Positions 4,046 through 16,268 of a stretch of DNA of 64,000 bases are shown here, piece by piece. The DNA lies in the NCBI GenBank assembly GCA_015058875.1, contig SVBN01000004.1, positions 1 to 64,000 of the forward strand, read 5' to 3'. The DNA comes from Erysipelotrichaceae bacterium (GTDB lineage: Bacteria > Bacillota_I > Bacilli_A > Erysipelotrichales > Erysipelotrichaceae). The notes under the pieces were generated by a model. It saw only the letters and a program-made list of their open reading frames with translations, made no database searches and was not told where the DNA came from. The translations under genes and the position numbers were made by a program. How positions within the stretch are numbered: position 1 is the stretch's first letter; each line of letters opens with the position of its first letter.

Positions 4046-5521
4046 TTATACTTTTATCTTTTTCCAGGTGCCCCTGCCGTAGAAGTACATGACAAGCGCG
4101 GTTCTGACCACCTGATCCAGGGCAATCGCAGCCCATGCACCGATCAGTCCCCATTTCAGAACGGAAATAAACAGTTCACCGGCAAGCGGTCTCAGGATCA
4201 ATACACAGACCAGCGTGATCACGGCAGTTGCCTTTGTTGCACCGGCGCCGCGCAGGGAACCGGAGAGAATGAACTGCGGCGTCTGTACCGGCTGGAGCAC
4301 GCCGAGGATGATCATCACCGGAATGGATGCCTGGATGACTGCCGGCGTATCGCTGTAGAAGCCGACGATTGTTGTTCCGAACAGACCGAACAGAAGACCG
4401 AGGAAAATCGAAATCACAAGGCCCAGGTAGGTACATCTTCTGGAATAATGCTCAGCCATATCGGTGCGCATCTTTCCTAGGCTCTGTCCGACCAGCGTTG
4501 TGGAAGATACCGCCATTGCCTGTCCCAGCATGAAGGATAGCGACTGGATATTCATGCAGATCTGATGGGTGGCATATCCGGGCTGGCCCAGGGTTGCGAC
4601 CTGGCGGGAGAACAGAATGATACCGACACGCAGGATGAACTGTTCAATCAGGGAAGGAATACCCACCTTGATAATTCTCCCGATTGTCCCGAAGTCCACT
4701 CTGAAGCCGTGCAGGAAATCCGTCAGCTTTGCATTGAAATAGTATTTACCGGTTCCGGCGGAAACCACCGCCATAACCAGAGCGACCGCCTGCCCGATGA
4801 CAGTTGCCAGGGATGCGCCGGCGACACCGAGTGCCGGGAAGCCGAAGTGACCGTTGATCAGCAGATAGTTCAGACAGATATTGATCAGATTGGCAGTTAC
4901 GTTATATACCATCGGCAGCTGGGAGTTTCCGGTACCGCGGAACGCTGCGGTATACGTAGCCGCAATGCCCATCGTCATGAAGCCGGCCATCTGAATCCGC
5001 AGATATGTCGTTGACATATGGACAATCTCTTCCGAGAGACTTCCGTTTGCCATGAACCGCACCAGCGGTTCCGCAAAGACATAGCCCATGATCGAACCGA
5101 AGATGCATACCATCAGTGACATGACCAGTCCCTGCATCAGAGTATTGTTCGCCTTTTCATGCTGTTCGGCACCGCGGTCTCTGGCAATTGCGGCAGTCAC
5201 ACCGACATTCAGGGCGATGATCATGGAGACAAAGATAAACTTCGGCTGATTTGCCAGACTGACGGCGGAAATCGCGTCATCTCCGTTCGGCATGGAACCG
5301 ACCATGATCATATCGGCCATGGAAACAAGACTGGTCAGAAGAAGTTCGATCAGTGAAGGCCAGGCAATCCGCATGATGTCCGCATATAACACAGAACTCT
5401 TACAGCCTTCCGGAAGCTTTCTTCTTTCCTTTGCGCTTTTCAGCTGTTCTTTTTCAATATCTTCTTCCGTACCCCAGGGTATTTCATCAAGATAAGTTTT
5501 TACCATCTTCTTTTCAGCCAT
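4046..5521 (-). CDS. MATE family efflux transporter
   Basis: MATE-like 12-TM protein; start at MAEKKMVKTY with GGGGGATCAC upstream. Confidence 0.85.
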   Translation of the reverse strand: MAEKKMVKTYLDEIPWGTEEDIEKEQLKSAKERRKLPEGCKSSVLYADIMRIAWPSLIELLLTSLVSMADMIMVGSMPNGDDAISAVSLANQPKFIFVSMIIALNVGVTAAIARDRGAEQHEKANNTLMQGLVMSLMVCIFGSIMGYVFAEPLVRFMANGSLSEEIVHMSTTYLRIQMAGFMTMGIAATYTAAFRGTGNSQLPMVYNVTANLINICLNYLLINGHFGFPALGVAGASLATVIGQAVALVMAVVSAGTGKYYFNAKLTDFLHGFRVDFGTIGRIIKVGIPSLIEQFILRVGIILFSRQVATLGQPGYATHQICMNIQSLSFMLGQAMAVSSTTLVGQSLGKMRTDMAEHYSRRCTYLGLVISIFLGLLFGLFGTTIVGFYSDTPAVIQASIPVMIILGVLQPVQTPQFILSGSLRGAGATKATAVITLVCVLILRPLAGELFISVLKWGLIGAWAAIALDQVVRTALVMYFYGRGTWKKIKV

Positions 5522-5603
5522 TGTGATCCCCCTTTCCGTAAAGAAAAACACGGAATACTGTTACCCGTGTTTATTGTATATGACAGGCAGTTGACTGTGG
5601 CAA

Positions 5604-6983
5604 CTATTTTGCTCTGCTTTCCGGAATTTCATCCTCCGGCAGATTCCGGAAAAAGGAAATCAGGTAGGGAATCGTAATGGCAGACGAAACCACATCCGAT
5701 ACCGCTCTTGAGATTTCCACGCCGAACAGTCCGAACATCCGGTTCAATATCAGAAGCACCGGAATCAGAACCACGCCGGAACGGAGTGCCGCCAGCCATA
5801 AAGCGGTCCCGGATTTGCCGATCGACTGAAACAGCATGTTTCCGTACAGCGTCACCGGCATCAGGAACAATGTCACCGACTGCCAATGCAGTGCAACCGT
5901 ACCGATCGTGATCACTTCCGGATCATCCCGGAAGAACGTGATGAAGGGCTCCGCATTCAGGAAAGCAAATGCCCCCAATATCATCATCAGAACCATGCCC
6001 AGACGGAAAGCAAACCAGAAGCCGTCGCGTACGCGGCTGTAGATCTTTGCGCCGTAGTTGAACGCACTGACCGGCTGGAATCCCTGCCCGATTCCGGTCG
6101 CAACACAGAACAGGAAGTTGATGATCTTGTTTACGATCGACATTGCCGCAACTGCCGCATCCCCATACGGGCCTGCCGTCGCATTCAGTACAATCGTCGA
6201 AACCGAGTTCAGTCCCTGTCTTGCAAGGGAAGGACTGCCGACCGTCAGGATATCCCTGAGCACCGCAAACTGCTTCGTAATATATTTCGGAGAGATCTTT
6301 GACTGTGTCTGTCCTCTCAGATACGGCATGATCAGAATGCATGCGCCGACATACTGGGAAATACACGTCGCAAGACCTGCTCCGCCGATACCCATATGCA
6401 GCACAGATACCATCAGGAAGTCCAGAAAGATATTCAAAATCCCTCCGGAAGTGAGACCGATCATGGCAAAGAACGCTTTTCCTTCATACCTCAGAATATT
6501 GTTCATAACGCAGGATGTGGTCATGGCCGGCCCGGCAATCAGAATCCAGAACGCATAGTCTTTCGCAAAGGGAAGAATGGTCTCCGTTGATCCCATCATC
6601 CTCAGCATGCCTTCCATAAACAGCATGCCCCCGCTCAGGATCAGCAGTCCGACAAGCAGCGCCCCGAAGAAACTGGTCGAAGCATATTCCCTGGCGCTGC
6701 CGACATCATGTGCCCCGAGCTTCCGGGAGATATTCGATCCGGCTCCATGCCCGAACATGAACCCGAATGCCTGCAGGATGGCGGAAAGGCCGAATACAAC
6801 ACCGGTGGCACCGGATGCACTTGTTCCGACCGTCCCGACAAAGTAGGTATCGGCCATGTTGTATATGTTTGTGACAAGCATGGAAATAATCGTCGGTATT
6901 CCCAGCTGAAGAATCAGATTCGGAATCGGTGTTTCCGTCATCTTTTTGTATTGTTCATCATTTGTCTGTACGATTCGCGGCAT
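5604..6983 (-). CDS. MATE family efflux transporter
   Basis: MATE signature-like N-terminus (PNLILQLGIPTIISMLVTNIYNMADTYFVG); start at MPRIVQ with GAGGA upstream. Confidence 0.9.
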   Translation of the reverse strand: MPRIVQTNDEQYKKMTETPIPNLILQLGIPTIISMLVTNIYNMADTYFVGTVGTSASGATGVVFGLSAILQAFGFMFGHGAGSNISRKLGAHDVGSAREYASTSFFGALLVGLLILSGGMLFMEGMLRMMGSTETILPFAKDYAFWILIAGPAMTTSCVMNNILRYEGKAFFAMIGLTSGGILNIFLDFLMVSVLHMGIGGAGLATCISQYVGACILIMPYLRGQTQSKISPKYITKQFAVLRDILTVGSPSLARQGLNSVSTIVLNATAGPYGDAAVAAMSIVNKIINFLFCVATGIGQGFQPVSAFNYGAKIYSRVRDGFWFAFRLGMVLMMILGAFAFLNAEPFITFFRDDPEVITIGTVALHWQSVTLFLMPVTLYGNMLFQSIGKSGTALWLAALRSGVVLIPVLLILNRMFGLFGVEISRAVSDVVSSAITIPYLISFFRNLPEDEIPESRAK

Positions 6984-7133
6984 AGTTGCATTCCTCAATA
7001 TAAGGTTACATGAACAGGTCCTGTTCTCAACTTACCATTTCACGGCAGAAATAACAGTAATTCTGCACAGGAGCCTGTCCCGCTCTTCCTTTCGTTTGTC
7101 ATCCTGTTATAAAATGACTTCAGAAAGCAATAA

Positions 7134-8707: not shown

Positions 8708-9406
8708 TCAGTTAACTCTGGTAAGTCCTTCGAAGGAATATGTTGCTTCGAGGCCGATTTCTGCTGTGTCAACTGTGATATCCGCATACTTCGGATCTGT
8801 GAAGTTGCCCATGCCTGTGATGTTGTATACCTTGGACATATCATATCCCTTGGCTTTCAGAATGTTCATCATCTGAGCAACACGTCCGCCGGACTGGCAC
8901 ATCAGGAAGAGTGTCTTATCCTTCGGGAAGAATACTTCCAGAAGTTCATCACTTTCTTCATAAGTCGCAACAGGATCCGTTACGTCACCGCTGTAAAGCT
9001 GTGTGATTCCTTCTCCGCCTTCCTTGCTGTAAATCAGAGCAAAGTAAGGAATGCATTCGAAGTTTCTGAAATGCTTCTTCGCATAATCGCCGAAGTCACG
9101 CAGATCGATATAGTAAACATCGTCACGGTTCAGATAGTCGAGCAGGTTTTCATTGTTGATGGCGGCGCATCCCGGAAGGAATGTGTCTTCTGTGCAGTCA
9201 ACAGGATCGGATTTTTCATCCGGCTTGTACTGCTTTGTTGTGTCACGGGGTGCAGGCAGTTCTGCCTGTACAGCTGTTTCGACGGGTGCTGCTTCTTCAC
9301 AGACCGGGCATTCGGGGCAGGCTGTAGCTGCGGGTGCAGGTTCAGCTGCTGAGGAGCATCCTGCCAGCATCAGCATGGCAAGAGCCGCTGTCATAAACTT
9401 TTTCAT
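8708..9406 (-). CDS. Rhodanese-domain lipoprotein
   Basis: Lipobox LMLAGCSS; YYIDLRDFGDYAKKHF and active-site-like loop MCQSGGRV; AAGGAGGAAAG ribosome site. Confidence 0.8.
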   Translation of the reverse strand: MKKFMTAALAMLMLAGCSSAAEPAPAATACPECPVCEEAAPVETAVQAELPAPRDTTKQYKPDEKSDPVDCTEDTFLPGCAAINNENLLDYLNRDDVYYIDLRDFGDYAKKHFRNFECIPYFALIYSKEGGEGITQLYSGDVTDPVATYEESDELLEVFFPKDKTLFLMCQSGGRVAQMMNILKAKGYDMSKVYNITGMGNFTDPKYADITVDTAEIGLEATYSFEGLTRVN

Positions 9407-9425
9407 TTCTTTCCTCCTTGTTTAC

Positions 9426-10451
9426 TCAGCTTTGAAAATATGCATCCTCCGCATGATACTTAAACAGAGCGTTCAGCATGCGGATAATGTTATTGGTTGA
9501 AACACTGGAGCCGGACAGTGTGTCCAGTGTATAGCCTTCTCTGCCTTCGCCGGACGCATATTCTGCCGCATCAATATCTTCCACAAAGCTCAGAGTCTGG
9601 ATGTATCCGTAATTCTTATCGATGAAATACGGAATGTATTCTTCCTTGAACATTTCATAGGTAGCTCCTGCCGGAGTCGGATTGGAGTCGCCCCAGAAAC
9701 CTGCCGTATAGTGATCCTGTGAATCTCTGTCAAAGGAGAGGAACCGTACTTCCGCATCATTAATATCCTTGGACTTCGGAAGCGTCAGTTCAACATAGGC
9801 GGTCATCCAGTAATTGACATCTGCGCTTCTGCATGTGCAGGACAGATACGTCACCTGATATTTGATATAATTTCTTGCCTTATACTTGAAATTGACAAAT
9901 GCATAGAACAATGTTTCTTCTCTCGGACCGTTGACATGGTTAATCGGAATAACTGCAACGGCGTTGCCCATAGTTCCTTCACCGAGATCCGCTGAATTAT
10001 TCAGCCATTCATTGACAGAATTGACATCGAATACACATCCGCCTTCACCTGCAGCTGCGGCAGCTTTTCCGCCGAACTGCTCCGGATCAACCCCGGCTTC
10101 TTCCAGCGCTTTCTGCGCAGCTTTTTTCACTGCCGTTGAGGTGATCGTGGCTCCCGATACAGCATCCACATCAATGGAGCCCTTCTCGGTCATTGCCTGC
10201 GTCATGGTTTCAATTGCCTTGTCTCCAAGTCCTTCGGTTTCCTTTTCACCGACACCTGCCGCACCGGTCAGCTTGCCGTCCTGGAATGTCAGGGTAATTG
10301 TGACATCGCCGCCATTTCCTTTTGCTGTGCCGGAGAATTCGCCGGAGACCCCTCCGGAAGATGCAGACTGTCCGCCTGCGCCTGATCCGCCTGCTGAGCA
10401 TCCCGCAAGAAGCGCCGCAAGAAGACAGGTCATCATTTTCTTTTTGATCAT
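9426..10451 (-). CDS. FMN-binding-domain lipoprotein, predicted covalently flavinylated
   Basis: Lipobox LLAGCSAG; motif DAVSGATITSTAVKKA (ApbE-target [S/T]GAT-type); second related motif TLSGSSVSTNNI near the C-terminus. Confidence 0.8.
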   Translation of the reverse strand: MIKKKMMTCLLAALLAGCSAGGSGAGGQSASSGGVSGEFSGTAKGNGGDVTITLTFQDGKLTGAAGVGEKETEGLGDKAIETMTQAMTEKGSIDVDAVSGATITSTAVKKAAQKALEEAGVDPEQFGGKAAAAAGEGGCVFDVNSVNEWLNNSADLGEGTMGNAVAVIPINHVNGPREETLFYAFVNFKYKARNYIKYQVTYLSCTCRSADVNYWMTAYVELTLPKSKDINDAEVRFLSFDRDSQDHYTAGFWGDSNPTPAGATYEMFKEEYIPYFIDKNYGYIQTLSFVEDIDAAEYASGEGREGYTLDTLSGSSVSTNNIIRMLNALFKYHAEDAYFQS

Positions 10452-10498
10452 TTTATGAGTTCTCTCTTTCGGTACATTTATTATAATGCATAATGTAG

Positions 10499-10510
10499 AT
10501 TGTATACAAT
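10499..10510. promoter_or_regulatory. Perfect 12-bp palindrome ATTGTATACAAT, candidate GntR-type operator
   Basis: Lies in the divergent intergenic region; resembles operators of FadR/GntR-type regulators; a GntR gene lies at the end of the plus-strand arm. Confidence 0.6.
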
Positions 10511-10563
10511 TTAGTTTTATATTTCATTCCGTCTGTTTTCTGCAATGTAATACAATTGAGACT

Positions 10564-11748
10564 ATGAAAAGAACTGCTTATTTATTATCACTGATGCTGT
10601 GTCTGAGCGGATGCCGCACCGCAGAACCTGAGCCGAAACCTGTACCGGAAGATCCTCCCGTTTATGCTTCCGCGGAAGCCATACTGAGAGAGGATGAGGT
10701 CATTGTTCCTTTCAACACAACAATCAGGCTGGAAACACTGTCACAGGAAGATATGGATCTTCTGTTTCCTGTCTTTCAGGAACAGACCACCTATTACAGC
10801 AAGCTGTTTGACAGGTATCATTCCTTTGCGGAGGAAGGCATCACAGGAATATATGAAGTCAATCAGTCGAACGGCACACCGGTGCATGTATGCTCAGAGC
10901 TGTTCCATGTGATCCGTGAAGCCGTACGGCTGAGTGAGCTGACCGGCGGAAGATATAACCTGACAGTCGGAAGACTGTATGATGTCTGGTCGGACAGGTT
11001 CAGCCCTTTCCCGATGGAACAGGAAGATCCTCCGGAAGAAGAAATACAATCAGCGCTCGGCTGCGTTGTAAAACCGGAAGATCTTAACGATGTCATCGTA
11101 CTGGATGAAGAAAACAGTACCGTTGCAATCATGCCTTATTCTTCCTGCGATACATCCGTTGTTTTGGACGCAGGTGCATTGGCAAAAGGATATGCTTCGG
11201 AACAGATATCACTTGCACTTCAGGAATATGAAGTTCCGTTTCTGATCAATGCCGGCTCGAGTTCCATCAGTGCATATACACCTCCCGGAAGAAATAAAAA
11301 CTGGTATGTCGGCATCCGCAATCCGTATGCGCGTGTCTATACGCTTTACGATTACACCATTCCGGATACAGGTCTGTTTTCTACCAGCGGCGATGATTCC
11401 AGTTATTTTATTCTGAACACGGAAGACGGACCACTCATCCGGCATCATATATTGAATCCTTCGACAGGCTATCCGGAAAATTCCATCCGTATGGCATCTG
11501 TCAGCTCCGACCGGAACGGGATGCTGTGCGATGTTCTTACTACCGCTCTCTTCAATACAGAGAGCCGGGAAGAACGTCTTCAGCTGATCTCCGTATTATC
11601 CGATTACGGCAGTATGGACATTGAATGGTCGTGGTTTGAAGAAACCGGAGAGGAACAGGGAACCCTCTGCTCTTCACAGGCTTTCTTTGAACAGATTCCC
11701 GCTGAATCCATCTCTGAAAACATAGCAGAAACTGAGGTAATCCCATGA
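10564..11748 (+). CDS. apbE: FAD:protein FMN transferase (ApbE family) lipoprotein
   Basis: Lipobox CLSGC; ApbE motifs LDAGALAKGYASEQ, TSGDDSSYF, HHILNPSTGYP; first in-context ATG at 10564. Confidence 0.88.
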   Translation: MKRTAYLLSLMLCLSGCRTAEPEPKPVPEDPPVYASAEAILREDEVIVPFNTTIRLETLSQEDMDLLFPVFQEQTTYYSKLFDRYHSFAEEGITGIYEVNQSNGTPVHVCSELFHVIREAVRLSELTGGRYNLTVGRLYDVWSDRFSPFPMEQEDPPEEEIQSALGCVVKPEDLNDVIVLDEENSTVAIMPYSSCDTSVVLDAGALAKGYASEQISLALQEYEVPFLINAGSSSISAYTPPGRNKNWYVGIRNPYARVYTLYDYTIPDTGLFSTSGDDSSYFILNTEDGPLIRHHILNPSTGYPENSIRMASVSSDRNGMLCDVLTTALFNTESREERLQLISVLSDYGSMDIEWSWFEETGEEQGTLCSSQAFFEQIPAESISENIAETEVIP

Positions 11749-12416
11749 AAAAAACAATTCTGATTTCCGCTCTGCTGCTGAGCGCATGCAGCGCACCTCC
11801 GGCTGAAAAGGCCGAGGTACATACCGAAACTCCGGCCCCCGTGACTGAACCGCAGTCTCTGCCGGAAAAAAGCCTGCCCGAGTCAGAGCTTGCAGCGGAT
11901 TCACCGCTCAGCGCCGAAAACATTGATGACTATCTGTTTTTGCCGGGTGTGCGTTACGTTGACCTGCGTTCCTGTGAACAGATTTATTCCGAAGGCGGTA
12001 TTGCCGGGTTCGTAAATATTCCGTTTTATGATGTGATTGTTTCCTGGCAGCCTCAGGAAAATGTCCTGTTTACGATGGCCAAGTCCGCTTCTGACAAAGA
12101 TACCTATCTTGGAGGCGTCGGTACTTTTTCACCGAATTATGAAGAAAGCGAAGATATCCTGCATGAAATGTTTGAACAGGACTGCCCTATCGTCTTTATT
12201 TCCACGGCCGGCGTAGAGGCTGCCTATATGATCAATCTTCTCAAGCAGTACGGTTATGACCCTTCCCTGCTGTATAATGCCGGAACATTTACAAACGGAA
12301 TAGGAAGTACTGCAGCATACCGCGATCTGGAAAATCACCGGTACTATATCGCGCCGGTGCAGGCATTCCGTGCTTCTCTTTCTTTTGACTGGGGTGAATT
12401 GAACAGCGTACAATAA
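11745..12416 (+). CDS. Rhodanese-like lipoprotein lacking the catalytic Cys
   Basis: Lipobox LLLSACSA; VRYVDLRSCEQI...; loop position reads FISTAGVEA rather than CxxGxR; overlaps apbE by 4 nt (ATGA). Confidence 0.65.
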   Translation: MKKTILISALLLSACSAPPAEKAEVHTETPAPVTEPQSLPEKSLPESELAADSPLSAENIDDYLFLPGVRYVDLRSCEQIYSEGGIAGFVNIPFYDVIVSWQPQENVLFTMAKSASDKDTYLGGVGTFSPNYEESEDILHEMFEQDCPIVFISTAGVEAAYMINLLKQYGYDPSLLYNAGTFTNGIGSTAAYRDLENHRYYIAPVQAFRASLSFDWGELNSVQ

Positions 12417-12433
12417 ACTCAAAGGAGTTTATT

Positions 12434-13120
12434 ATGTCCGGAATCCGCATTCACGCTACTATCCGCCAGCAGATATTTGAAATACTGAGAGACAGGATCA
12501 TGGAAGGGTATTACCCTGCAGGTACACGTCTTTCCGAGCAGCAGATCTGTGATGAGTTCAATATCAGCCGTTCCCCGGTACGTGAAGCTTTCCGCAATCT
12601 GGAAAGCAGCGGTCTTCTGAAAGGAACCGCCAACAAGGGTGTACAGGTAAAATCCTTTACCGCTCACGATATAACAAATCTGTATCAGGCAGAAACTATG
12701 TTTCAGATCACCAGCATACAGAACGGCGTCAGTTCAATGACTGAGGAACAGGCCGCTTCATTTGAAAAATACAGAACACTGTTTACCGATGCATACAATT
12801 CGGAAAATCTGGAACAATATCTGTCTGTGTCCGAAAAGTTCCATAATGATATTACGGCGCTCGGACAGAATGAACTGATCATTCAGATGTACCGTCAGAT
12901 CGGAACACTGAATCACAGATTCCGTCTGACTGCCCTGAAAAATCCCGAGCGTCTGCGTGCATCCCAGGAAGAGCATCTGAAGATGATCGATGCGCTGAGA
13001 GCAAAAAATGCGGATGAACTTCAGAAACTCATGCAGATGCACATCTCAGAATCATCCAGGTATGCGCTCATGGCCATTCCCGCCGCATCTCAGATTGAAA
13101 CAGAGGATGAATCTGCGTAA
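12434..13120 (+). CDS. GntR family transcriptional regulator (FCD-type C-terminus)
   Basis: GntR wHTH (IFEILRDRIMEGYYPAGTRLSEQQICDEFNISRSPVREAFRNLESSGLL); AAAGGAG ribosome site. Confidence 0.9.
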   Translation: MSGIRIHATIRQQIFEILRDRIMEGYYPAGTRLSEQQICDEFNISRSPVREAFRNLESSGLLKGTANKGVQVKSFTAHDITNLYQAETMFQITSIQNGVSSMTEEQAASFEKYRTLFTDAYNSENLEQYLSVSEKFHNDITALGQNELIIQMYRQIGTLNHRFRLTALKNPERLRASQEEHLKMIDALRAKNADELQKLMQMHISESSRYALMAIPAASQIETEDESA

Positions 13121-13188: not shown

Positions 13189-14589
13189 TTATGCGGCAGC
13201 TGCAGGACTGTCCAGCTGCCTGTAAATATAAACGATTGCACAGACAGAGATCACAAATGTAATCAGATCTGCCAGCGGCATGGAATACAGGATGCCGTTC
13301 AGCCCGAAGAAGACAGGAAGAATAATCGGGAATGCAACGCCGAACACCACTTCACGGATCATGGATATCACTGTTGACAGCATTGCTTTACCCAGTGCCT
13401 GAAGGTAGATAAAGGACGCTTTGTTCACACAGGCCAGTACAATCATGGACAGATAAATGCGGAATGCCTTCATGGCAAATTCGGTGTAATAAACACTTTC
13501 ATTGCCTGCTCCGAAGAGACCGATCAGCTGTCCGGGAAGCAGTTCTGTCACAGCCAGTGCCGCAAGACCAATCAGTGTTTCTGTCTTCAGCAGAAGCGTA
13601 AACAGATCCCTTGCTCTGTCATTCCTGCCGGCACCGGTGTTATACGCCGCAATCGGAGCACATCCTGCGGCTGTTCCGACGACTGCAGAAATGACAATCT
13701 GAAAGAATTTCATAACGATTCCGATGACTGCCATCGGAATCTGAGTCAGTGAAGGATCGGAGAATACCGGATCCAGCTGACTGTATTTCGATACCATGGC
13801 GTTCACTGCGGCCATGCTTGCTACAACCGACACTTGGGAAAGCAGGCTGGTCATGCCGAGCGGTACATATCTTCTCATTGTTTCCGAATATACATGCAAT
13901 GCGTCACGGCTCAGCTGTATGGTCTTCATATGCATCAGATACCGGACGGTCAGTGCTGCAGTTACAATCTGGCCGATCACTGTAGCCACGGCCGCCCCCA
14001 TCATGCCCCAGTGCAGACCGTAGATCATGATCGGATCCAGGATAATATTCGTGAACGCACCGGCCAGGGTTGCAGCCATGGCATACTTCGGATTTCCGTC
14101 TGCGCGGATCACGGGATTCAGACCCTGTCCGAACATGTAGAACGGAATACCCACCGTAATCCAGAAGAAATATTCTTTTGCGAGTGCATAGGTCTGGTCA
14201 TTGACCCTGGCACCGAAGAATGTGATCAGCTGATCTGAGGCAATCAGATACAATGCTGTCAGGATAAGACTTGAAAGAATTGTTGTGACAACCGCAGACC
14301 CGACTGCTTTTTTTGCGTCTTTTGCCTTGCCGGCACCGAGCGAAATGGACATCAGCGTACTGCATCCGTCCCCCAGCATAACCGCGATTGCCAGGGCAAC
14401 CACCGTCAGCGGAAATACAACGGTATTTGCGGCGTTGCCGTATGATCCGAGATAAGATGCGTTGGCGATAAAGATCTGATCGACGATGTTGTAGAGTGCT
14501 CCGGTAAGCAGGGAAATCACACACGGAACCGAGTATTTTCTCATCAGTGTACTGAGAGATTCCGTTTCCAGAAAACTGTTCTGTTTCAT
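13189..14589 (-). CDS. MATE family efflux transporter
   Basis: MATE-like (VISLLTGALYNIVDQIFIAN); start at MKQNSFLE with GGAGGA upstream. Confidence 0.88.
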   Translation of the reverse strand: MKQNSFLETESLSTLMRKYSVPCVISLLTGALYNIVDQIFIANASYLGSYGNAANTVVFPLTVVALAIAVMLGDGCSTLMSISLGAGKAKDAKKAVGSAVVTTILSSLILTALYLIASDQLITFFGARVNDQTYALAKEYFFWITVGIPFYMFGQGLNPVIRADGNPKYAMAATLAGAFTNIILDPIMIYGLHWGMMGAAVATVIGQIVTAALTVRYLMHMKTIQLSRDALHVYSETMRRYVPLGMTSLLSQVSVVASMAAVNAMVSKYSQLDPVFSDPSLTQIPMAVIGIVMKFFQIVISAVVGTAAGCAPIAAYNTGAGRNDRARDLFTLLLKTETLIGLAALAVTELLPGQLIGLFGAGNESVYYTEFAMKAFRIYLSMIVLACVNKASFIYLQALGKAMLSTVISMIREVVFGVAFPIILPVFFGLNGILYSMPLADLITFVISVCAIVYIYRQLDSPAAAA

Positions 14590-14772
14590 CAAATTCATCC
14601 TCCATTGATATCGGAGATTTCTGCCAAAGCTGAACAAAAAGAAAAATGCGCAGGTCCTGCCCGGACTTACGCACTTGACTTGCTGCTCAGCGATTTGGAT
14701 TTTACATCAGAAATGAATCTGCAGTCAAAACTTTTTTGCGTCAGAAATGATGCAGAACATGAATAACCTTTC

Positions 14773-16164
14773 CTATGATCTCTGCTCCGTTTTCCCGGAA
14801 GCATTCACAAAAGCTTCTTCGAGCCTTCCGTTTTTCTTCAGCCAGAAATAGTACCCGTAAACACAGAGCGCCTGGAAAAACCAGCCGACCGGGAAGCCGT
14901 AGAATACATTCCGGATATTCCAGTCGATATGCATGGATACGTACAGGAATATCTGACGGATGCCGATCATGCCGATCAGTGATAACAGCATGACCTGTCT
15001 GGAAAAGCCGAATCCTCTGAGTGATCCGGACATCACCTGATTCAGACACATCAGGAAGTAAAACGGAACCATGATATGAATCATCTGCGAGCCGACCCGC
15101 ATGACCTCCGCATCGCGGTTGAACAGACCGATGAAGAAGTTCGAGTTCAGCATCAGCGGGATGCCCATGACGGCAATCGAAATCATGCCCATGACAAAGG
15201 TTGTGACCATGCCGCTGCGGATGCGCTCCCGCTTTCCGGCACCGACATTCTGGGATACAAAAGTGGTTACGGCAAGACCGAGAGCCTGACACGGCATCGA
15301 AACAAACCGGTCCAGACGCTGGGCAACACCGACACCGGCGGTTGCCGTAGAGCCGAAGCTGTTGATATATCTGTGCACAAACAGATTGGAAATGGAAATC
15401 AGAGACGACTGGATGCCGGCTGGCAGACCGAGATCAATCACTTCCATCAGAAGATCTTTTTCGATTTTCAGTTCGCTGACGCTGAACCGGTAGCGCTCAT
15501 CCAGCCGCATCATATTCCGCAGCACCATGCATACCGATACAAACTGGGAGACGATCGTGGCGATAGCAACACCGATGACGCCAAGTCCGGCATAGCGGAC
15601 CAGAATAATGTCCAGAACAATATTCAGACAGCTGGCAGTGACCAGCGCATAGAACGGACTGCGGGAATCACCGACCGCACGCATGACACCGGATTCCACA
15701 TTATAGATGGAAGTAAACAGGATTCCCATGATATAGATTTTCAGATATGCATCTGCCTGGGTAAAAATATCTTCCGGACATCCGACGATCCCGAGCAGGA
15801 ATTTCGAGAATACGGCACCGAACACAGCCATCGTGACACCGACGATCAATGCAAACATGACCGTCGTATGAATCGACCGCTTCAGCCGGTCATAATCTCT
15901 CTTTCCGAAATTCCGGGCAAACAGAACCGAAGCCCCCGCCGACATTCCGGTAAAGAATCCGATGAGCAGATTTGAAATCGGAGCACAGGTATTCACCGCT
16001 GCCAGTGCGCCTTTTCCGACAAAGTTTCCGACCACCAGCGAGTCAACGCTGTTATACAGATTCTGAAAGAGATTGCCCAGAAAAATCGGGGCAGAAAACA
16101 ACAGGATCTGTTTATAGATATTGCCTTCCGTCAGATCCATGGTTCGCCGGTTTGTGCCTGCCAT
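14773..16164 (-). CDS. MATE family efflux transporter
   Basis: MATE-like (QILLFSAPIFLGNLFQNLYNSVDSLVVGNFVG); start at MAGTNRRT with GGGAGG upstream. Confidence 0.9.
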   Translation of the reverse strand: MAGTNRRTMDLTEGNIYKQILLFSAPIFLGNLFQNLYNSVDSLVVGNFVGKGALAAVNTCAPISNLLIGFFTGMSAGASVLFARNFGKRDYDRLKRSIHTTVMFALIVGVTMAVFGAVFSKFLLGIVGCPEDIFTQADAYLKIYIMGILFTSIYNVESGVMRAVGDSRSPFYALVTASCLNIVLDIILVRYAGLGVIGVAIATIVSQFVSVCMVLRNMMRLDERYRFSVSELKIEKDLLMEVIDLGLPAGIQSSLISISNLFVHRYINSFGSTATAGVGVAQRLDRFVSMPCQALGLAVTTFVSQNVGAGKRERIRSGMVTTFVMGMISIAVMGIPLMLNSNFFIGLFNRDAEVMRVGSQMIHIMVPFYFLMCLNQVMSGSLRGFGFSRQVMLLSLIGMIGIRQIFLYVSMHIDWNIRNVFYGFPVGWFFQALCVYGYYFWLKKNGRLEEAFVNASGKTEQRS

Positions 16165-16268
16165 ACTACGCCTCCCGTTATCAGCCCTGTCATTATAAAC
16201 TGATTGCATGATGCAACTCAATTGCAGATTTCACAGGAATATGACCGGTTTCCGGATGCCGGGTATTC

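Follow-up and report, generated by a model that had tools for sequence, protein, structure and literature searches.

A divergent lipoprotein locus of an Erysipelotrichaceae bacterium as a candidate extracytosolic flavin-thiol-rhodanese redox relay

Positions 8708-13120 of contig SVBN01000004.1 of an Erysipelotrichaceae bacterium (GCA_015058875.1) carry five genes, hereafter the module, which were analysed within a window consisting of the whole stretch of DNA from position 1 to 64,000 of that contig. An initial annotation had described four lipoprotein genes in two divergent pairs, with a GntR gene ending the plus arm, and had proposed that the lipoproteins form one outer-face assembly coupling flavin electron carriage to sulfur chemistry. 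All five open reading frames were recovered, and the four lipoproteins bear the lipoboxes LAGC, LAGC, LSGC and LSAC (Table 1). The reported motifs were likewise all seen: DAVSGATITST in the flavin mononucleotide (FMN)-binding lipoprotein FMNL, CQSGGR in the rhodanese lipoprotein RHO1, and the Cys-less loop STAGVE in the rhodanese-like lipoprotein RHO2. The ApbE reading frame is listed from 10486; an internal ATG at 10564 puts its LSGC lipobox in the normal signal-peptide position, and the ApbE and RHO2 genes overlap by ATGA.

The Pfam cut-offs are 22 bits for FMN_bind, 25.6 for ApbE and 22.2 for Rhodanese. The N-terminal domain of FMNL combines a clear profile match with the acceptor motif of the flavinylation rule [S/T]GA[S/T] (PMC11334425), and the module ApbE combines its profile match with active-site motifs (GALAKGYA, HHILNPSTGYP and DVLTTALF) aligned to 1vrm and 7esa. 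Of the two proteins initially called rhodanese and rhodanese-like, RHO1 passes the cut-off with a CxxxxR loop; RHO2 falls below it and has no catalytic Cys, yet it is paralogous to RHO1 (31% identity, E 1e-17). A reading of RHO2 as a decayed pseudogene was rejected because the loop [SA]TAGVE is kept across genera and phyla. The second half of FMNL is an unannotated domain of about 200 residues with a CTCR motif and a flavinylation-like DTLSGSSVST, for which we use the name FMNL_C.

Table 1. Features of the module (coordinates in the window; aa, amino acids; AF2, AlphaFold2; Sec, selenocysteine)
Feature	Position	Strand	Basis or remark
RHO1, catalytic-type rhodanese lipoprotein	8708..9406	-	lipobox LAGC; Pfam Rhodanese (PF00581) 27.5 bits
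RHO1 active-site loop C170-Q-S-G-G-R175	8882..8899	-	CQ[SGA]G[GA]R kept in RHO1 subfamily
FMNL, 341-aa lipoprotein: N-terminal FMN_bind and C-terminal FMNL_C	9426..10451	-	lipobox LAGC
Pfam FMN_bind (PF04205), FMNL aa 45-117	10101..10319	-	68.8 bits
Canonical flavinylation motif D96AVSGATITS105, predicted FMN acceptor T102	10137..10166	-	sequence and [S/T]GA[S/T] rule (PMC11334425)
FMNL_C domain, aa 138-341	9429..10040	-	68-sequence alignment, AF2 model; no Pfam family at cut-off
CTCR motif C205-T-C207-R208	9828..9839	-	C207 position is UGA (Sec) in genome G053
Second, divergent flavinylation motif D310TLSGSSVST319, predicted acceptor S316	9495..9524	-	68-sequence alignment
Palindrome ATTGTATACAAT, candidate GntR operator	10499..10510	.	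divergent promoter region
ApbE lipoprotein, module paralogue	10564..11748	+	Pfam ApbE (PF02424) 136.3 bits; lipobox LSGC
RHO2, rhodanese-like lipoprotein without catalytic Cys	11745..12416	+	lipobox LSAC; Pfam Rhodanese 15.4 bits
RHO2 loop S153TAGVE158, conserved stand-in for catalytic loop	12201..12218	+	[SA]TAGVE in nearly all Erysipelotrichia/Treponema RHO2
GntR/FCD regulator	12434..13120	+	Pfam GntR and FCD

A search of relatives with the whole of FMNL returned mostly ordinary FMN_bind proteins, with a single genome of the same genus matching end to end (79%), and a search with RHO1 led to the same module in further genera of the family. Three of five compared genomes are without the Pfam FMN_bind domain and retain the C-terminal 200 residues, RHO1, ApbE and RHO2. 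A search of 395 genomes of the class recovered FMNL_C in 26, and 80 loci were reported from the collection of named genomes (Solobacterium, Holdemania, Dielma, Treponema, Proteiniclasticum, Alkalibaculum, Tissierellia, Izemoplasma-like bacteria and others), where labels of metagenome-assembled genomes may be wrong in single cases. Linkage was counted over 81 non-redundant named loci (Erysipelotrichia, Clostridia/Tissierellia, Izemoplasma-like Bacilli and spirochaetes), three of them cut by contig ends. Every one of the 78 evaluable loci pairs FMNL_C with a rhodanese on the same strand, as a fusion in seven and within 300 bp in 71. L138 and L153 are examples of natural fusions, a further fusion carries two rhodanese domains (L215), and an independent whole-genome search of the class placed rhodaneses near FMNL_C in nearly every genome. 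Conservation of the neighbourhood, on which the initial annotation had staked its proposal, is thereby borne out: it recurs in other genera and phyla, far above chance expectation.

The N-terminal Pfam FMN_bind domain, by comparison, is confined to 18 of the 81 named homologues, and it was rejected as the conserved partner because most homologues are without it. The essential rhodanese partner is FMNL_C, and the Pfam domain is accessory. The initially proposed association of flavin and rhodanese components is supported by gene order and repeated fusions, with the partnership shifted to the C-terminal domain. The rhodaneses fall into several loop types, namely CQ[SGA]G[GA]R for RHO1, [SA]TAGVE for RHO2, and DGC[IMV]R or CA[SAG]G[TV]R in the Izemoplasma-like bacteria. 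Lipoboxes were found by a simple pattern in 70 of 76 FMNL_C proteins, 59 of 63 RHO1, all 26 RHO2 counted and 33 of 35 ApbE.

An alignment of 68 FMNL_C sequences shows invariant residues that include H172, G175, Y198, Q199, C205, T206, C207, R208, G254, D255, D310, V317 and H333; because YQ...CT served as the scan pattern for this set, the invariance of that part is biased here. The class search is free of this bias, and in it all homologues but one Sec variant and one paralogue keep CTCR. Near the C-terminus, the motif D-x3-G-[SA]-[ST]-V-[ST] has Ser or Thr at the acceptor position 316 in 68 of 68 sequences, and the Asp at -6 and the Val at +1 do not vary. The canonical [ST]GA[ST] is found in 15 of 86 homologues, the others reading mostly GSSV. 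A second FMNL_C paralogue in genome G085 (L241 6873-7865) has lost CTCR, has a long N-terminal extension and keeps a flavinylation-like motif, DTFAGSSVSTNN; no rhodanese or ApbE lies in the 15 kb around it.

The window FMNL_C scores 14.7 bits against the FMN_bind cut-off of 22, and sub-threshold matches to this family were obtained for 45 of the 68 members (best 2.8e-5). When the domain was aligned by hhalign to 21 families, the three that bear FMN_bind ranked first to third (47, 25 and 22%, against at most 1.3%), and an independent FMN_bind hidden Markov model exceeded 8 bits in 36 of 68 real domains, 3 of 1360 shuffles and no reversed sequence. The FMNL_C profile matches true RnfG at 6e-5 through the RnfG end SGATVSS...YHNENY. 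The C-terminal motif and the helix that follows it are alike in FMNL_C and in the FMN_bind domains of RnfG and NqrC, whereas FMNL_C is a lipoprotein with large insertions and CTCR and is always paired with a rhodanese. The AF2 model of FMNL_C (mean predicted local distance difference test (pLDDT) score 93.1, predicted template modelling score 0.91) has an order of strands and helices compatible with FMN_bind. Foldseek with this model did not bear out such kinship: no FMN_bind structure was among the 50 Protein Data Bank (PDB) matches listed, and none of these fell below 1e-3. With an earlier and poorer full-length model of FMNL (23 sequences, pLDDT 69), even the genuine N-terminal FMN_bind domain was matched only weakly. 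A PDB profile search gave a dehaloperoxidase (E 0.18) and an FMN4 domain (0.65) as sole matches, both of which were treated as chance. Given the profile evidence, the lack of FMN_bind structures among the Foldseek matches listed and the score below the Pfam cut-off, we regard FMNL_C as a probable divergent relative of the FMN_bind/RnfG type and not as a member by Pfam's rule.

Genome G053 belongs to the same class and is represented by a single contig of 2,165,257 bases; its FMNL_C gene has the reading SCT-UGA-R, in which the UGA takes the position of C207 (L105 1637-1639; L242 8186-8188). A tRNA-Sec lies about 100 bp past this gene (above the Rfam gathering score, with ARAGORN in agreement) and is followed by selD, selA and selB, of which selD itself has an in-frame UGA in a CGG-UGA-AGK motif. 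At the same locus, FMNL_C is preceded by a two-domain rhodanese; upstream lie the Rnf genes, among them one for a multi-FMN RnfG, and [FeFe] hydrogenase is encoded on both sides. An altered genetic code is not favoured, because the neighbouring long genes read without internal stops and the UGA coincides precisely with an invariant Cys, next to selC and selDAB. With an in-frame UGA at a conserved Cys and the Sec machinery in the genome, this FMNL_C is a candidate new selenoprotein with a predicted Cys-Sec pair, and the position of the Sec beside its own genes suggests a redox role of C207. A review of prokaryotic selenoproteins (PMC13188914, 2026) lists comparable CxU motifs and rhodanese selenoproteins, whereas the Sec in G053 sits in the flavoprotein-like partner; the main text of that review nowhere mentions flavin, FMN or lipoprotein.

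ApbE is present twice in several genomes: the copy in the module scores about 100-137 bits, the other about 180-310 bits. In the window genome, the module ApbE scores 137 bits and the other 241 bits; the latter belongs to a second flavinylation locus (G000:C107:55-5677, L221) comprising ApbE, an RnfD-like protein and several FMN_bind domains on contig C107. In a maximum-likelihood tree, the module ApbEs of Erysipelotrichia and Treponema form one supported clade (clade A, 97/87) and those of Izemoplasma another (100/100), with the other ApbEs of the same genomes outside both. RHO2 accompanies the clade-A ApbE at all 23 loci where the latter was counted (recognised by pattern at 19 and by ATAGVE loops at four); judged by sequence, these two genes complete the four-lipoprotein set in Erysipelotrichia and Treponema. 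ApbE and RHO2 are lineage-specific additions to the core. Records of Treponema and other Spirochaetaceae (L117, L119-L122, L127, L154 and L155) carry the module at 54-72% identity to the protein of the window, a pattern suggestive of transfer between phyla.

At about a dozen Izemoplasma-like loci, rhodanese, FMNL_C and ApbE adjoin RnfC, RnfD, a multi-FMN RnfG, an RnfA/E-type subunit, [FeFe] hydrogenase and a NuoF-like protein, and an Rnf operon stands beside the four-gene module in two Erysipelotrichaceae loci (L064/L157 and L160). Genome G085, taken as Xianfuyuplasma coldseepsis zrk13, carries a rhodanese-FMNL_C-ApbE module. Thiosulfate promotes the growth of this strain, its known sulfur genes are not induced, and no reductase was identified (PMC8397711). 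The Rnf and hydrogenase context together with this growth favours a reductive sulfur role, without proving it. Next to FMNL_C loci without ApbE we also observed a protein of about 400 aa (cluster c16; L185 365-1594 and L175 9069-10271) with a weak thioredoxin/glutaredoxin-like match, a possible alternative electron source.

On balance, our preferred reading of the locus is an extracytosolic flavin-thiol-rhodanese redox relay, whose core is RHO1 and FMNL_C on membrane-anchored lipoproteins that may form a complex; its direction would most likely be the reduction of sulfane sulfur. FMNL_C would carry covalent FMN, probably on S316 and attached by the dedicated ApbE in the window lineage, and a redox-active Cys pair in CTC(R). 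Cys170 of RHO1 would accept sulfane sulfur from an extracytosolic donor such as polysulfide, thiosulfate or an organic persulfide and pass it to the CTC pair, from which sulfide would be released as the pair becomes a disulfide. The flavin of FMNL_C would then re-reduce the disulfide and be refilled by upstream carriers, namely the N-terminal FMN_bind domain here and separate FMN_bind lipoproteins or a multi-FMN RnfG elsewhere, and ultimately by Rnf. RHO2 would be a non-catalytic partner, likely a scaffold or a substrate binder.

Besides the Foldseek result, several observations weigh against this relay. No ApbE was found in seven of 50 FMNL_C genomes tested, where missing sequence is possible because ordinary FMN_bind proteins are also present (the other 43 have an ApbE somewhere), and many clostridial FMNL_C loci have no adjacent ApbE. 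In the window, no Rnf stands beside the module, the RnfD of the genome being on another contig. The Sec variant is known from the single genome G053, and the small hairpin after its UGA is no better than shuffles (z-score -0.9). Alternatively, FMNL_C might not be flavinylated at all, its motif being an ancestral remnant or its FMN non-covalent, with ApbE acting only on RnfG, RnfD or the N-terminal FMN_bind domain and the CTC having a metal-binding or structural role. This we consider rather unlikely. The prevalence of GSSV over GAT, the failure of Foldseek to recover FMN_bind and the presence of other FMN_bind proteins in 49 of the 50 genomes are in its favour; it has to accommodate, however, an acceptor Ser or Thr in 68 of 68 sequences, module-type ApbE at loci whose FMNL_C protein is without FMN_bind (e.g. 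L125, L126 and L130), and the small draft genome G453, which has two ApbE genes and FMNL_C and gives no FMN_bind match. A structural CTC is also hard to square with Sec at C207. Nor do we expect FMNL_C to be the FMN-bind2 subtype of Huang et al. 2024, such that only the rhodanese partnership would be new; of the readings weighed here this seems the least probable. FMN-bind2, a domain of about 160 aa present in Erysipelotrichaceae, carries insertions between beta1 and beta2 and between beta3 and alpha1 (PMC11334425), where, compared by description only, the CTCR loop and the GDSxPxP loop of FMNL_C could fall. It is, however, often present in two or four copies per protein, while FMNL_C is single, and rhodanese goes unmentioned in that study.

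The function of the pair may also differ from sulfane sulfur reduction. FMNL_C could maintain the thiol quality of the envelope by reducing disulfides or persulfides of surface proteins, with the rhodanese as a thiol-exchange partner and with no sulfur respiration, which we likewise hold to be rather unlikely. In other families, similar rhodanese lipoproteins without FMNL_C adjoin thioredoxin-like lipoproteins, another rhodanese lipoprotein of the window genome (L072 5705-6841) has a weak thioredoxin-like match at its C-terminus, and the cluster c16 protein stands at some Izemoplasma-like loci, all of which would suit such a role; the Rnf and hydrogenase linkage and the dedicated flavin machinery suggest an energy-linked flux instead. 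A module running in the opposite direction, oxidising extracellular sulfide or thiols and passing electrons from CTC through FMN to extracellular acceptors or Rnf, appears unlikelier still. Flavin-Cys chemistry is reversible, and the multi-FMN protein beside RnfD in the window genome is of a kind linked to extracellular electron transfer; against this, the Rnf and [FeFe] hydrogenase neighbours suggest a fermenter's electron outlet, and the growth of zrk13 is promoted by thiosulfate, not by sulfide.

Of the remaining features of the locus, the palindrome ATTGTATACAAT between the divergent arms recurs at the same position in L109, L110 and L111, with its core in L112. These loci carry the same GntR gene beside the module, and the palindrome is absent from 11 divergent loci without that gene. 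The GntR/FCD protein is a likely local regulator in the Solobacterium-like loci, with ATTGTATACAAT as its candidate operator. The exact sequence TTGTATACAA occurs once in the 64 kb, with 0.03 expected. In RHO1, the linker after the lipobox contains a CPECPVC cluster (9299-9319, aa 30-36), a possible metal or thiol site, and related Cys-rich linkers occur in L064 and L160. Pairs of MATE-family genes flank the region at 4046-6998, assigned from sequence alone, and at 13189-16221, confirmed by Pfam MatE.

The interpretation given in the initial annotation is thus partly supported, and its remark that no named system has this composition agrees with the literature searched (a search that leaves out many subscription papers and all preprints), in which none was described and no paper was found that joins flavinylation, ApbE, FMN-binding or Rnf with rhodanese. 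ApbE-flavinylated extracytosolic systems (Meheust et al. 2021, PMC8238504; Huang et al. 2024, PMC11334425) have in common with the module an ApbE, an FMN_bind lipoprotein, an envelope location and links to Rnf and multi-FMN proteins. In contrast to them, FMNL_C lies below the Pfam cut-off and adds the CTC/CTU pair, and the ApbE here forms a separate clade; the word rhodanese is absent from both papers. In the Listeria-type locus for flavin-based extracellular electron transfer, which comprises FmnB, PplA, EetAB and Ndh2, the ApbE-type enzyme and the FMN-binding lipoprotein are alike, with rhodaneses here instead of Ndh2, EetA and EetB. None of these three stands beside the window module, the neighbours being a GH1 enzyme, MATE transporters and GntR. 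In the coenzyme A-disulfide reductase-rhodanese family and the NAD(P)H persulfide reductases, which are cytosolic enzymes using flavin adenine dinucleotide (FAD) and NAD(P), a flavin, a redox Cys and a rhodanese together handle persulfide. The parts of the module could work in a similar way; a Pfam scan found no FAD or NAD(P) domain in it. We place the module as a variant among the ApbE-flavinylated systems of envelope electron transfer, and there is a fair chance that its chemistry is new.

Flavinylated envelope proteins are known carriers, and most of their terminal reactions are unassigned. The constant company of a rhodanese and the fixed-site selenocysteine in G053, with its tRNA-Sec and Sel genes adjoining, point to a definite chemistry. 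Tentatively, FMNL_C might represent a new class of extracytosolic flavoenzyme, in which covalent FMN and a CTC/CTU centre act with a lipid-anchored rhodanese as an Rnf-driven sulfane-sulfur reductase, so that anaerobes of gut and sediment could respire sulfur or thiosulfate without molybdenum or haem; in part of its range, FMNL_C would have an ApbE of its own. If so, a substrate class would be added to flavinylation that family libraries miss at their cut-offs, and the thiosulfate-stimulated growth of Xianfuyuplasma could in part be explained. Furthermore, Erysipelotrichia of the rumen and gut, oral and rumen Treponema, and wall-less sediment bacteria would have Rnf energy conservation linked to sulfur compounds.

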